Shown here one piece after another: positions 13,687-42,769 of a stretch of DNA of 46,325 bases. Source of the stretch: a virus. Where the stretch lies: positions 1 through 46,325 of the IMG/VR virus record IMGVR_UViG_3300022745_000050. One strand, 5' to 3'. Made by a program: the position numbers and the translations under genes. A model generated the notes under the pieces. The model saw only the letters and a program-made list of their open reading frames with translations, had not been told where the DNA came from and did not search any database. Within the stretch, counting starts at the first letter, position 1. Each line of letters starts with the position of its first letter.

Positions 13687-14588
13687 GGGACTGCTGGACC
13701 GTCTACGACGCCAAGCACGTTCAGAAGAACGTCGCGTCGACAGCCACGCTGGCCTTCGCTTGGAAGGCGCTAGAGCCGCATTTCGGTGCGATGCTCGTGC
13801 CGCAAGTGGCCCAAGACGCCGTAGACGACTATACCGACAAACGGACCTCCGGGCGCCTCGGGCGCAAGGTCAAAGAGCCGACTGTGCGCCGCGAGTTGTG
13901 CGCGCTCTTCGCTTGTCTGAATTTCTGCGCGACGCAGAAGATGTTCCCGGCCAGCGCGGTCGAAAAAGTGAAGCTGCCGTCCGCAGGAGAGCCCCGCGAC
14001 CGCTGGCTGACCACGACGGAGATGCAGTCGATGTTGGCCGCCGCTGCGCGCCTGCGTCGCGGCGATCGTCTGTCGCGCGGCGAACGGTTTTTGTGGCTGG
14101 CATTGGCCACCGCTGGTCGCATGTCGGCTTTGTTGGATTTGACGTGGGACCGGGTGGACTTTGAAACCAACGTCATACATCTTGACGTTCCGGGGCGCGA
14201 GAAGACCAAGAAGCGGCGGGCCAGCGTGCCGATCTCGTCGGACCTGTTGCCCGTGCTGAAGCGGGCGATTGACGAGCGGGAGAGCAATCTGGTGTTGGAC
14301 AATAAGGCGTCTATCTGGACGACGATCCAGCTTATCGCGATCGAAGCCGGGCTTGGGGGCGTGAAGCCCAAGAACACACGGCTGGAGAAGCCGAAGGCAA
14401 CTGGCATATCTCCGCACACTTTGCGCCATACGGCAGCTACCCACATGGCTCGGCGCGGGGTTCCGCTCTGGATCATCGCCAAGGTCCTCGGCAACACGCT
14501 GGCGATGGTCGAGAAGGTCTACGCGAAGCACTGCCCGGACGATCTCCGGGCGGCGGTGAACATGGTGTCGAACGGAGCGCTTTCCTGA
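13506..14588 (+). CDS. int: Tyrosine-family integrase
   Basis: 360 residues from the ATG at 13506 with TGGAGAG upstream; a longer in-frame reading to 13392 has no ribosome site and overlaps the HTH_17 domain. The N-terminal ~70 residues are an arm-binding-like domain, followed by a core-binding helical region. The catalytic set is visible: TAGRMSALLDLTWDRV (first Arg), HTLRHTAATHMARRG (H-x-x-R-H) and the nucleophile in MVEKVYAKH. It integrates the phage at attP, whose tRNA-like core lies about 145 bases downstream. Confidence 0.92.
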   Translation: MSIPELRATADGTYYAFWSDARRSKRKSMGTSDSAVAQERFAHWLLIRNDKSQGEAVYTVRDCWTVYDAKHVQKNVASTATLAFAWKALEPHFGAMLVPQVAQDAVDDYTDKRTSGRLGRKVKEPTVRRELCALFACLNFCATQKMFPASAVEKVKLPSAGEPRDRWLTTTEMQSMLAAAARLRRGDRLSRGERFLWLALATAGRMSALLDLTWDRVDFETNVIHLDVPGREKTKKRRASVPISSDLLPVLKRAIDERESNLVLDNKASIWTTIQLIAIEAGLGGVKPKNTRLEKPKATGISPHTLRHTAATHMARRGVPLWIIAKVLGNTLAMVEKVYAKHCPDDLRAAVNMVSNGALS

Positions 14589-35764: not shown

Positions 35765-35804
35765 CCCCACTTCCGTCAAGGCAAAAGGCTTGAAACCGGA
35801 ACAA

Positions 35805-37383: not shown

Positions 37384-37430
37384 AAGGGGCGAAAGCCCCT
37401 CCCCCCCCCTCCCCCCCCCCCCCCTCCCCC
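37384..37430 (+). repeat. Hairpin plus long poly-C tract
   Basis: GGGGC-GAAA-GCCCC (a GNRA-loop hairpin) runs into C9-T-C14-T-C5 up to 37430, ending 18 bases before the ATG at 37449. Such a run is prone to slippage in replication and sequencing, and the G-rich strand could form a quadruplex. Without a T-run it is not a standard terminator. Confidence 0.7.
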
Positions 37431-39635: not shown

Positions 39636-39829
39636 CCGGCAAATACCAGCCTTGGCCAAGCGAAGCGGATCCAGCGTGGCGCCGACTGGCAAAGCAGGCT
39701 ATGAAAGAGGCGGATGATATGCTTACCCGGATCCCGCCGCGGCAGCGCGACATCGGAGATCCTAACCATCCGGTGCACACCGGCTTGTTCGGGCAGGACG
39801 TGGCGTCATTTCTCAAGAGGCAACAATGA
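39632..39829 (+). CDS. Hypothetical small protein
   Basis: 65 residues: MTGKYQPWPSEADPAWRRLA, helical middle, ends GLFGQDVASFLKRQQ. The GCATGACC start overlaps the upstream stop and its own stop overlaps the next ATG, so it is translationally coupled. No family recognised. Confidence 0.5.
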   Translation: MTGKYQPWPSEADPAWRRLAKQAMKEADDMLTRIPPRQRDIGDPNHPVHTGLFGQDVASFLKRQQ

Positions 39830-39939
39830 TTTTCATCGCTATCGCCCTGGGTTTTCTTGTCGCCCTGTTTGCCACCCCGCCCATAATTCTGGGCTGGATC
39901 CGAGTGCAAATCATCCGCCGCTTTGAGAGGCGCCCCTAG
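39826..39939 (+). CDS. 37-residue membrane peptide
   Basis: MIFIAIALGFLVALFATPPI then ILGWIRVQIIRRFERRP: one membrane span and a basic cytoplasmic end. ATGA overlap with the gene before. The terminator stem starts within its last codons. The last gene of the rightward cassette. Confidence 0.55.
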   Translation: MIFIAIALGFLVALFATPPIILGWIRVQIIRRFERRP

Positions 39940-39957
39940 TGGGCGCCTTTCCTTTTG
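39928..39957 (+). terminator. Rho-independent terminator
   Basis: AGGCGCCC (39928-39935), loop CTAGT, GGGCGCCT (39941-39948), then TTCCTTTT. A perfect 8-bp GC-rich stem and T-rich tail; it closes the rightward cassette and includes the last stop codon. Confidence 0.82.
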
Positions 39958-40062
39958 CGCCTGACCCGGTTTTTAGGGCCGCCAGAGGGGCAAGTCACCC
40001 CTTGCCTATACCCTACCCTATCCCGCGCCTCTCTGGCCCTTCCTGGCGCGCTCTGGCGCGCT

Positions 40063-40200
40063 GCCTATCGCCATCGGACCTGACCGCCTATCGCCATCGG
40101 ACCCGACCGCCTATCGCCATCGGACCTGACCGCCTATCGCCATCGGACCTGACCGCCTATCGCCATCGGACCTGACCGCCTAGCGCCCTCGGACCTGACC
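40063..40200 (+). repeat. Six tandem 23-bp repeats (iteron-like)
   Basis: The unit is GCCTATCGCC followed by ATCGGACCTGACC, six in a row without gaps. Units 1, 3, 4 and 5 are identical, unit 2 differs at one base and unit 6 at two. No spacers, so not a CRISPR. A 23-bp period (about two helical turns) is typical of iterons at plasmid/phage origins. It lies downstream of the terminator and before the other repeat families. Confidence 0.9.
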
Positions 40201-40253
40201 GCCCGCGCCGCCCGCGCGCCGGCCTGTGCGCCCGTTGCATTGGCCCCCGCCAA

Positions 40254-40373
40254 GATTTCCTTGGGCTTAATCTTTTCGCGACAGGGACGCCGGGATTTCC
40301 TTGGGCTTAATTTTTTCGCGACAGGGGCACCGGGATTTCCTTGGGCTTAATCTTTTCGCGACAGGAAAATGGG
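40254..40373 (+). repeat. Three tandem 40-bp repeats
   Basis: Each unit begins GATTTCCTTGGGCTTAATCT (TTT in unit 2) and continues TTTCGCGACAGG. Units start at 40254, 40294 and 40334; the last six or so bases of the third differ. TCGCGA is palindromic. They lie immediately before GTGTGTTACA (40373-40382) and TACAAT, which may be a promoter. Confidence 0.88.
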
Positions 40374-40435
40374 TGTGTTACAATTTGCTATTTGTTGGCC
40401 CCTGTCTTCGCCCATCGAGCCCACTTCCCCAAGCG

Positions 40436-40488
40436 GGAGGTGGCGGATGCAGGGGCGGCGGAAGTCGCCACCTCCCCCCGTAGGGGGG
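40436..40488. other. Two stem-loops in the putative origin
   Basis: GGAGGTGGCG (40436-40445) pairs with CGCCACCTCC (40466-40475), 20-base loop. CCCCCC-GTA-GGGGGG (40474-40488) forms a second, overlapping hairpin. Such foldbacks near iterons can be sites of initiation or priming. Confidence 0.65.
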
Positions 40489-40492
40489 CCGA

Positions 40493-40667
40493 ACTTCCGT
40501 ACTTCCGTAAATTTAACCTCCGTATAAGAAATCAATGACTTAGCCCCCAACTTCCGTACTTCCGTAGACTTCCGTGCCGAACTTCCGTAATCAATGAAAT
40601 CAATGACTTACAAGACCACTCTCGGGAACTTCCGTGAACTTCCGTACAACTTCCGTACAACTTCCGT
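40493..40667 (+). repeat. Ten copies of ACTTCCGT
   Basis: Exact copies start at 40493, 40501, 40550, 40558, 40568, 40581, 40628, 40638, 40649 and 40660, with a one-mismatch copy at 40516. Several are 8-11 bases apart, the last four in near-helical phase. A/T-rich spacers include ATCAATGACTTA twice. They run up to the stop of the prim-pol helicase gene (40676). Confidence 0.9.
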
Positions 40668-40675
40668 ACAACTTT

Positions 40676-42769
40676 CTAGCCGAAAACACCGTCGTTCAGG
40701 ACATCTTGTCCAGCCCCACCCACCACTTTGTAGCCCTTTATTTTCTTGTCGCTGTCCCGCACCGCCACGCAGATCAGGCCCGAACCTTCCCAAACCCGCA
40801 GCAAATCTTCGGCCTCGTCGCCCTTGAAACCGAACTCTTCCACCATGTGTTTCACCGCGCGGCGGTCCCCGCTCTGCGCCGCCTTTGACCAAGGCCGACC
40901 GCTTTCCCACGCCGCCCGCATTGCCCCCAAGACCTCGTCGGCCACCGCTGGAGTCAGTGCGACACCGGGGCCGAACCCCACCACTTCGCGCTCTGCCACG
41001 AGCGAGGACTGGCCATCGCCAAGCCCGACGACGTCGAACCGATAGGGCTCCGACCACCCATCCTCTGCGGCCTTCTGCTTTTCGCAAGTCAGCGTGCCGA
41101 TCGACGCGCCCTTCTTGCGCTCCAGCTTGAATACGAAATCGCCCGCCCCGAGCAGGACCGTCGAGCCCCGCATGTCGCCAGACTTGCCGGCGTGGTGGAC
41201 GCCCATGACGGCGCACTGGAACTCGTCCCGGACGCGGTCGCAGGCTTTGACGAAGAGCGTCATGTCCTTCTGCAAGTTTTCGTCCGCGCCCGGCATGGCG
41301 CGCGATACGGTGTCGACCACCACGAGGGCAGGCTTTACGCCCGCAGCGCGCACCGTGCGCAGCAGCTTCTCGATGTCGTCGGGCCGCATGAACTCGATGG
41401 ACTTCTCGATAATCAGAAAGCGATCTGTGAACTGGCCAATGCCCCGGCGCTTGTGCCAGGCTTTCGCCCGGTTGCCCATGTCGAAGGATCCTTCGGACGC
41501 GATGTATAGGACGTCCGCGTTCGGCTTGGCGTTGATCTTGTCGCCGTGCCAATCCGGCAACCCGTGGGCGATGGCGAGGGCCATGTCGATGGCGAGGAAC
41601 GATTTGCCTGCACCGGGCGTCGAGTACAGAAACCCGACCGAGACGTCCGGTACGTGCCGGTCGATCAGGAAAGACGGCGGGGGCCTGTTGATCACATCGG
41701 ACAGTTTGAGCAGGGGGTAGAGCGCGTCTGACTTCGCCTCGATCGCCTCCGCAGCCGCAAAGGGGCTTTCCTCTTGGGTTTGAAGTTCCTCGAACCAGAC
41801 CTCGGCTTGGGTGAAATCGCCGTTTGACAGGGCGTCAGCTTGGTCGAACAGCCACGACGCGCCGCGCTTGTACGGGGGCTTCATGCGGCACCAGTCAGCG
41901 GCCACGATGTCGGGGTCGTTCCCGCTTGGCCAACGGTCGCACCACTCGCTGAAGATGTCGAACGCCTCGCGCTCGTCAGGGACCGCCGCTTTGATCGCGT
42001 AGCCCATCGCCAGATAGCTTTCCCGTGTCGGGAAGTGGTCTGATGTGTTGGGCGTCGCGGCGACAGCTTTGCGGATCAGTGCCGGGTCGCCCCGTAGGGT
42101 TTGCTGATCGACGTCGGACGCAGCGCCCTCTTTGACGATCGGGCGTGCCGCGGGGAGCGCTTGGCGCAGCCGCTCCAGAAGGGGGCCGACCTGATCGTGC
42201 GGCAAGAGAGGGAGTTGATCAAATGGGGGGAGCGGCCGGTCCCACGCGTAGGGCTTGCCTGTCTTCGGGTGGACGCCGAGAGCGACGAACTGCCGGCCAT
42301 GCGACAGGACCTCCACGCGCTCGGGGATGCCCTTGGCATTGGGTTCACCGAAGTCGACGCGCTGATACGGCACGTCGCCATCGGTGCGGAAGACGTAGCC
42401 CTGCTTTGGCGCTTGCCCGGTCCTGACGGGGGCATGGCCATCGCCGTCGACGATCGGCCGGATGATCGCGGCAAGGTCGGGGTGCATCGTGTCGGCGTCG
42501 ATGAGCAGCACCTTGCCCGTCTTGATGCCGACGCCGGCGCCCATCGCGTGCCAGCGCTCGAAATCACGTTCGTCTGCGACGTGGTTGATCCAGTCGAAGG
42601 AACCCCATTTGCCGCTCGGGAAGCGGATGCCGGGGGTCTTGCCCCGGCCGTCCTGGTGTGTTCCGACGCGCTTGTACAGGGTGGAGTTCGGGCTGATCTC
42701 CGCGTTGGGCGGTATGATCGGCACCAGATCGGTGTAGCCGAGTGCGGCCAGTTTCTTGAAGGGGTTCAT
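40676..42769 (-). CDS. Prim-pol primase / RecA-like helicase replication protein
   Basis: 697 residues. The N-terminal ~200 residues are a bifunctional primase-polymerase domain (GVGIKTGKVLLIDADTMHPD with D91 and D93). Residues ~225-315 match PriCT_2 (LIRKAVAATPNTSDHFPTRE, FDIFSEWCDRWPSGND, WLFDQA). The C-terminal motor has Walker A STPGAGKS (383-390) and Walker B PALVVVDTVSR. It likely initiates replication at the adjacent repeat region. The C-terminus is NDGVFG, the shared tail, here not forced by any overlapping start. Confidence 0.88.
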   Translation of the reverse strand: MNPFKKLAALGYTDLVPIIPPNAEISPNSTLYKRVGTHQDGRGKTPGIRFPSGKWGSFDWINHVADERDFERWHAMGAGVGIKTGKVLLIDADTMHPDLAAIIRPIVDGDGHAPVRTGQAPKQGYVFRTDGDVPYQRVDFGEPNAKGIPERVEVLSHGRQFVALGVHPKTGKPYAWDRPLPPFDQLPLLPHDQVGPLLERLRQALPAARPIVKEGAASDVDQQTLRGDPALIRKAVAATPNTSDHFPTRESYLAMGYAIKAAVPDEREAFDIFSEWCDRWPSGNDPDIVAADWCRMKPPYKRGASWLFDQADALSNGDFTQAEVWFEELQTQEESPFAAAEAIEAKSDALYPLLKLSDVINRPPPSFLIDRHVPDVSVGFLYSTPGAGKSFLAIDMALAIAHGLPDWHGDKINAKPNADVLYIASEGSFDMGNRAKAWHKRRGIGQFTDRFLIIEKSIEFMRPDDIEKLLRTVRAAGVKPALVVVDTVSRAMPGADENLQKDMTLFVKACDRVRDEFQCAVMGVHHAGKSGDMRGSTVLLGAGDFVFKLERKKGASIGTLTCEKQKAAEDGWSEPYRFDVVGLGDGQSSLVAEREVVGFGPGVALTPAVADEVLGAMRAAWESGRPWSKAAQSGDRRAVKHMVEEFGFKGDEAEDLLRVWEGSGLICVAVRDSDKKIKGYKVVGGAGQDVLNDGVFG

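Follow-up and report, generated by a model that had tools for sequence, protein, structure and literature searches.

Repeats, boxes and hairpins behind a primase-helicase gene

The stretch of viral DNA analysed here, called the window below, comprises 46,325 nucleotides (IMG/VR virus record IMGVR_UViG_3300022745_000050). Its positions 40063-40675 hold no plausible gene. This region is situated between two convergent transcription units, that is, between two gene 3' ends: on its left, a terminator-like hairpin closes the genes of the plus strand; on its right lies the end of a primase-helicase gene, 9 nt away from the last iteron, and the region is therefore not the promoter of that gene. A preliminary description of this DNA had seen a gene-free stretch running up to the prim-pol helicase gene, and indeed it does, the contact being with the gene's 3' end. 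The repeats that it listed (six 23-mers, three 40-mers and ten copies of ACTTCCGT) are present where it placed them, as are its two overlapping stem-loops, which share 3 nt (Table 1). An Rfam search of 39900-40800 found no match.

Table 1. Features in and around the intergenic region of the window
Feature	Position	Strand	Remarks
Terminator-like GGCGCC hairpin with T-rich tail	about 39930-39958	+	read directly; left limit of the intergenic region
Six tandem 23-mers (GCCTATCGCCATCGGACCTGACC)	40063-40200	+	contiguous, sixth copy diverged; phage-specific, outside the conserved core
Three tandem 40-mers (..GATTTCCTTGGGCTTAATCTTTTCGCGACAGG..)	40248-40367	+	contiguous; phage-specific
Longer G+C hairpin	40435-40476	+	arms 40435-40445/40466-40476; right arm shares 3 nt with the mini-hairpin
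Mini-hairpin CCCCCC-GTA-GGGGGG	40474-40488	+	loop C(GTA)G on the plus strand; stem covaries in relatives
Iteron array	40493-40667	+	ten exact ACTTCCGT and one degenerate copy, three clusters with IHF-like boxes between; presumed initiator-binding
IHF-consensus box 1 (AATCAATGACTTA = WATCAANNNNTTR)	40530-40542	+	homologous boxes in 34 loci
IHF-like box 2 (AATCAATGAAATCAATGACTTA)	40589-40610	+	consensus match, perfect core 40598-40610
Primase-helicase gene, 697 aa	40676-42769	-	Prim-Pol / PriCT-2 / RepA-type (AAA_25, RecA fold) helicase / C-terminal winged helix; Pfam, PHROG, RSF1010 RepA 1g8y, AF2 model
Part coding for the predicted winged helix (residues 607-682)	40724-40951	-	structure models
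Codon of wing residue K676	40742-40744	-	tracks iteron base 4

All ten exact iterons are on the plus strand; the mismatched copy, ACCTCCGT, lies at 40516-40523, and the rest of the 46-kb window holds a single exact copy, at 35769. The array is far beyond chance: the 11 copies of ACTTCCGT in the window were reached in none of 100 whole-window shuffles, and the commonest 8-mer of the array occurs 10 times compared to at most 3 in 2000 dinucleotide shuffles. The preliminary description did not mention the two IHF-consensus boxes, each of which separates iteron clusters and matches WATCAANNNNTTR perfectly. The window contains four matches to the IHF consensus where 0.29 are expected. The loop of the longer hairpin includes an inverted near-iteron, GCGGAAGT (40458-40465). 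Loops of the C(GNA)G type, as in the shorter hairpin, form unusually stable DNA mini-hairpins. The hairpin region has unremarkable single-strand fold energies (z -1.7 and -2.0), and the case for the hairpins therefore rests on their conservation.

Several other features are found nearby. A perfect 10-bp duplication, CTGGCGCGCT, occupies 40043-40062, immediately ahead of the 23-mers. A 37-aa putative membrane peptide (MIFIAIALGFLVALF...) is encoded at 39826-39939, just before the terminator facing the putative origin, and tiny membrane ORFs occur at the same position in L002, L006, L007 and RHph_N65. A C-rich tract of 35 bases (82% C) is found at 37396-37430.

The 697-residue protein, presumed to be both initiator and replicative primase-helicase, carries the Pfam domains Prim-Pol, PriCT-2 and AAA_25. 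The nearest solved helicase is RepA of RSF1010 (1g8y; E 3e-6), which its fold matches too. In an AlphaFold2 model (mean pLDDT 86), the chain ends in a predicted winged helix, with helices at 607-622, 631-646 and 650-663 and wing strands at 666-672 and 677-682. Modelled alone, this domain reaches a pLDDT of 73 (about 80-86 in its core). Among known structures it compares best with SAMD1-DNA, at Z 8.6 (71 residues), and the winged helix at the C-terminus of MCM scores Z 7.5. Such values speak clearly for the fold class of the predicted domain and for that only; Foldseek with the winged helix alone returned no match at E<0.001. The last codons (40679-40690, minus strand) specify a short [VIA]F[x] tail, disordered in the structure model (GVFG, SVFD, GIFE, GIFD and others in the window and its closest relatives). 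It is kept where the winged helix is missing (EIFT in L010) or different (L102, L110, L122, L138); L129 (GALG) and L200 are without it. The tail resembles the C-terminal Phe tail by which T7 gp4 binds its polymerase.

One layout with changing iterons in related phages

Relatives were gathered by protein search from IMG/VR contigs, Rhizobium phage RHph_N65, EBPR siphovirus 5 and a few bacterial genomes; the full-length relatives of the protein are about 29-59% identical to it. More than 40 related phage loci carry the same module 3' of the primase-helicase gene, in the order 3-4 iterons, box, 3-4 iterons (often including a head-to-tail pair), box, 2-3 iterons, usually followed by a short palindrome and then a longer G+C hairpin. 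The iterons are 8 bp long, point in a single direction and form three clusters, with the two IHF-like boxes at conserved spacing. In the closest relatives of the window, the array begins 1-76 nt past the primase-helicase stop, and in some others up to 6 kb from the gene. The gaps spanning the boxes, tallied by hand, are mostly 33-39 bp, then 43-49 and 54-57; as a test of helical phasing they are weak, since values of 34-35 predominate and any period from about 10 to 11.5 suits them equally well. Spacing strings are alike among phages despite different iteron sequences: 11,11,10|47|13,10,8|34|15,8 in the window (reverse complement), 12,10,10|37|13,10,8|34|14,8 in RHph_N65 and 11,9|35|12,9|34|10 in L043. 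The iteron consensus strings, assigned by hand and written on the helicase strand, are ACGGAAGT in the window, L003 and L004, GCGGAGAT in RHph_N65, GCGAAAGT in L005, GCGAGGGT in L006 and L007, GCGTAGGT in L002, TTGCAAGT in L009, GCGAAGCA in L129, GCGGAGCA in L135/L136, GCGGAAAT in L137 and GCGGAGGT in many loci of a second group.

The IHF-like boxes number 54 in 34 loci across the relatives, compared to 1.5 expected from shuffles. It is this count that constitutes evidence, and not the invariance of TCAA and TTR, which the search pattern held fixed; the W positions are A or T in every case and N4 is more variable. About 15 of the 53 distinct boxes obey the strict consensus (the A of WATCAA), most others reading TTTCAA. 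In IHF sites the core elements are CA and TT, and flanking A/T modulates affinity (review, PMC10380432). The 19-mer of the box is also present in many contigs devoid of array or helicase and is a poor marker alone. In L249 (5.0-6.7 kb) it lies in an attP-like setting with the sequence of a tRNA 3' end, a repeated GGACCCAAA and an integrase gene, which independently hints at a role of the box as IHF site.

The mini-hairpin is conserved in its pairing. Its stem, computed on one representative per type, is 98% paired, with 17 cells changed on both sides and a covariation of 0.63 compared to 0.22 in shuffles. Of the 44 loci examined, about half have a clear GNA-loop hairpin; where a three-base loop closed by C-G adjoins the array, it reads GTA or GAA in the orientation of the window's plus strand (TAC or TTC on that of the helicase gene). 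An inverted iteron is found inside the hairpins of L005, L025, L060, L061, L082 and others, as it is in the window.

The preliminary description had counted three iteron types and proposed that they bind several proteins. The relatives lead to a different picture, with one conserved iteron type and an IHF-like box. Neither the 23-mers nor the 40-mers turned up in the loci of close relatives; their exact patterns had no match in viral_contigs, and similarity searches found none in phage and plasmid records. They are private to the window phage, and the conserved core consists of the ACTTCCGT array and the double hairpin. Absence of the repeats from close relatives with the same replication gene had been named as an argument against an origin: the 23-mers and 40-mers are indeed absent there, while the 8-mer array and the hairpins recur in nearly every close relative.

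Further afield, L102, L110, L122, L138, L200, L216 and Vibrio phage 1.076.O have other repeats in what is, by eye, a broadly similar setting. Arrays are weak or absent in L017, L039, L040 and L048, which have long flanks, and BcepGomr (L084) is without this array, having other A+T-rich repeats and a hairpin. In the second group, 28 loci (for example L053 8861-9631, L043 and L078) have, no more than about 1 kb past the array, a gene for a conserved protein of some 220 aa (..GTYIAGAEVRDDVDLIASEMEAKWGADRLRLLV..), of which the window group yielded no counterpart. In L211, a gene starts right after the array, about 200 bases past the box at 2729, and its product, judged from its beginning (MAGLNKVTLIGRLGADPESKSFQNGG), resembles a single-stranded DNA-binding protein. 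Phage-specific 27-bp tandem repeats occur in L004 (1-412, GCCCGTG..), L003 (5337-5783, GATGCTG..) and L005 (26-167, GCGGTCG..), likely inside coding sequence.

Which protein reads the iterons

Only one ORF family, that of the primase-helicase, occurs in every one of the 44 array loci tabulated. These loci had been fetched via the primase-helicase; hence two controls were made that started from elsewhere. Among 37 loci collected through the terminase, strong arrays were found only beside a helicase gene lying in range (L103, L104, L107, L113). Among 83 loci collected from the DNA, with the box 19-mer, most were without the array; those that had it and enough flank mostly showed, upstream, an AAA_25 helicase ending in a winged helix, and they include L211 and L216, in which the helicase has diverged so far that a protein search gives no clear match.

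A sliding-window partial Mantel test, with helicase distance removed, ranked the wing tip (673-684) best of 215 windows for iteron distance, with r 0.50 and P(max) 0.001 for 31 non-redundant taxa and r 0.49 and P(max) 0.08 for 14 close relatives, the permutation of taxa ignoring the tree. Within group 2 alone there was no wing signal, the iterons hardly varying there. In a scan of 6120 residue/base pairs, the top pair was residue 676 (K) with iteron base 4 (G), at p 2e-7, followed by a second-best pair at p 5e-5. A lysine is present in 36 of the 37 loci with G at base 4 and in none of the 7 others; base 4 varies in few loci (7-8). Residue 676 had been spotted by eye before the scan, which ranks it independently of that choice. 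The E-values and permutation values are uncorrected for ancestry, except in the tree-contrast test: with independent contrasts on supported branches of the helicase-domain tree, five out of five agree and none disagree, giving a sign test p of 0.06 that is limited by the number of contrasts (7 changes on the best tree). The cleanest contrast is that of the sisters L003 (ACGGAAGT, K) and L006 (GCGAGGGT, R). In the exception, L072, the lysine sits one residue later.

Changes at the C-terminus are accompanied by changes in the DNA. The L010 protein stops before the winged helix, and 17.7 kb of L010 contain neither array nor IHF-like site; in L138 and L200, unrelated C-termini go together with unrelated repeats. 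The winged helix is thus most likely to bind the iterons with sequence specificity, as judged from these sequence comparisons. One could imagine instead an origin at which a RepC-like initiator, encoded separately by the phage, binds the iterons, the winged helix having some other purpose. RSF1010 does have a separate RepC (PMC4234260), and our gene screen across genomes covered the near neighbours of the arrays. This arrangement is nevertheless unlikely in view of the wing-residue/iteron covariation, of L010, and of the joint replacement of C-terminus and repeats in L138 and L200.

A putative origin of replication and its relation to known systems

The core at 40435-40667 is very probably the replication origin of the phage, bound by its own primase-helicase in the manner of P4 alpha or RSF1010; this reading draws on sequence comparison. 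As in iteron origins, multiple short direct repeats of one orientation lie in non-coding DNA with the gene of the presumed initiator adjoining. To this extent the origin proposed in the preliminary description, from iterons, a foldback and an adjacent initiator-like gene, is upheld as a probable one, without its three iteron types. Cumulative GC skew, which it had put forward as a check, brings no support for an origin here: there is no usable extremum at the array in either the window or RHph_N65, and in the latter, which is complete, the extremes fall at about 24 kb and 46-48 kb and the array at 35 kb.

Other arrangements of repeats with IHF sites fit worse. The repeats could belong to a packaging site (cos/pac), bound by the small terminase with the IHF box between. 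The cosB site of lambda consists of repeats plus IHF, a layout that the array matches, and the gene for the large terminase subunit is 7.5 kb off in the window. However, loci with a terminase of 55-100% identity show a strong array only if the primase-helicase lies within reach, in which case the array is beside the helicase; a lambda-type site accompanied by terminase genes was not what the terminase-first loci displayed. In RHph_N65 the terminase is 8.5 kb from the array, and the iteron sequence follows the helicase wing, so that packaging seems very improbable. We give as little credence to a repressor or a ParR/ParB-like protein as the ligand, with the array as transcriptional operator or partition site (centromere). 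Clusters of short direct repeats, such as this one, are typical of operators and parC-type centromeres, but the array lies between two gene 3' ends, away from any promoter position, no second protein family is beside it in all loci, and covariation implicates the primase-helicase's own winged helix. An attP, with integrase arm-type repeats and IHF sites, is hardly credible at all: the layout of oriented short repeats with IHF boxes would suit it, the window phage encodes an integrase and the 19-mer in L249 adjoins an integrase and a tRNA 3' end, but the array is placed after the helicase gene and, contrary to a lambda-type attP, adjoins no integrase gene in the window (26 kb away) or in RHph_N65 (21 kb). 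The window integrase, of the tyrosine type, is encoded at 14004-14528, and the phage is therefore probably temperate.

If the core is an origin, the most likely course is that the C-terminal winged helix reads the 8-bp iterons via its beta-wing, as the covariation suggests. IHF or a similar bender, acting at both boxes, would then fold the three iteron clusters into one complex, as the consensus match and spacing of the boxes suggest. The RepA-type helicase domain would thereby be loaded at the hairpin end, on opened DNA, and the exposed strand might form the C(GTA)G mini-hairpin and serve as loading or priming signal for the Prim-Pol domain, which is the least certain step. The bending and priming steps are inferred from P4 alpha, RSF1010 and pRN1.

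Phage P4, with its alpha protein and ori repeats, is among the closest known systems. The alpha protein, whose helicase is of the SF3 type, resembles the window protein in domain layout, both uniting primase, helicase and winged helix in one chain. Its primase is a bacterial-type Toprim (PMC4234260, where P4 alpha, RSF1010 and pRN1 are compared together), whereas the window protein has Prim-Pol and PriCT-2 rather than Toprim. In contrast to P4, the helicase of the window is of the RepA type with a RecA fold, IHF-like boxes separate the iteron clusters, and hairpins adjoin them. With oriV of RSF1010 (IncQ) it has iterons and stem-loops in common, and in sequence and fold its helicase domain resembles the hexameric RepA helicase. 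In RSF1010, however, RepA, RepB' and RepC are separate, whereas Prim-Pol, helicase and winged helix are fused here in 697 aa and the presumed iteron reader is the winged helix on the same chain. The ssiA and ssiB sites of RSF1010 are the model for the proposed mini-hairpin signal. As in pRN1 (orf904) and Bordetella phage BIP-1 (PMC4234260), a Prim-Pol/helicase/winged-helix gene is followed, directly 3' of its stop, by the putative origin, with a stem-loop conserved by structure rather than sequence; those two have an SF3 helicase and no iterons or IHF-like boxes described, whereas the window helicase is AAA_25/RepA-type rather than SF3. That Prim-Pol/SF3-helicase/winged-helix proteins bind initially downstream of their own gene and use a stem-loop there had already been proposed (PMC4234260).

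The domain order of the window protein is that of the PrimQH proteins (primase, PriCT, RepA/DnaB-type ATPase and C-terminal winged helix; PMC5862659), to which we liken it on this ground and not by clustering of the primase domain. Kazlauskas et al. include RepA-type members and suggest that the winged helix recognises origins; the sections consulted name no origin sequence for this family, whereas the window provides a candidate origin and a candidate recognition residue. The literature found names no cognate site for RepA-type Prim-Pol members, and subscription journals may hold an earlier description. As here, the DNA-binding domain of RepA of the V. cholerae satellite PLE covaries with the ori iterons, and functional swaps have proven this (PMC8263062); unlike here, the protein is an unrelated one (RepA_N, no fused primase-helicase), the origin is unrelated, and PLE is a satellite, not a phage.

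What is new is a RepA-type member with iterons, IHF-like boxes and a hairpin in a geometry conserved over many phages, together with a candidate specificity residue. This provides a concrete candidate origin for RepA-type members, a layout that can be searched for in genomes and a prediction of specificity that concerns a single residue. With about even chances, we may be dealing with a widespread class of phage origins of fixed geometry (iteron clusters, two bend sites, hairpin), in which iteron specificity has switched repeatedly, largely via the wing of the winged helix (residue 676 versus base 4). Such switches would make the origin types of related phages mutually incompatible, and the pressure behind them might come from competing phages, from satellites or from nucleases directed at origins. 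These phages would then offer a natural series of diverged origin/initiator pairs in which to study how replication specificity evolves.
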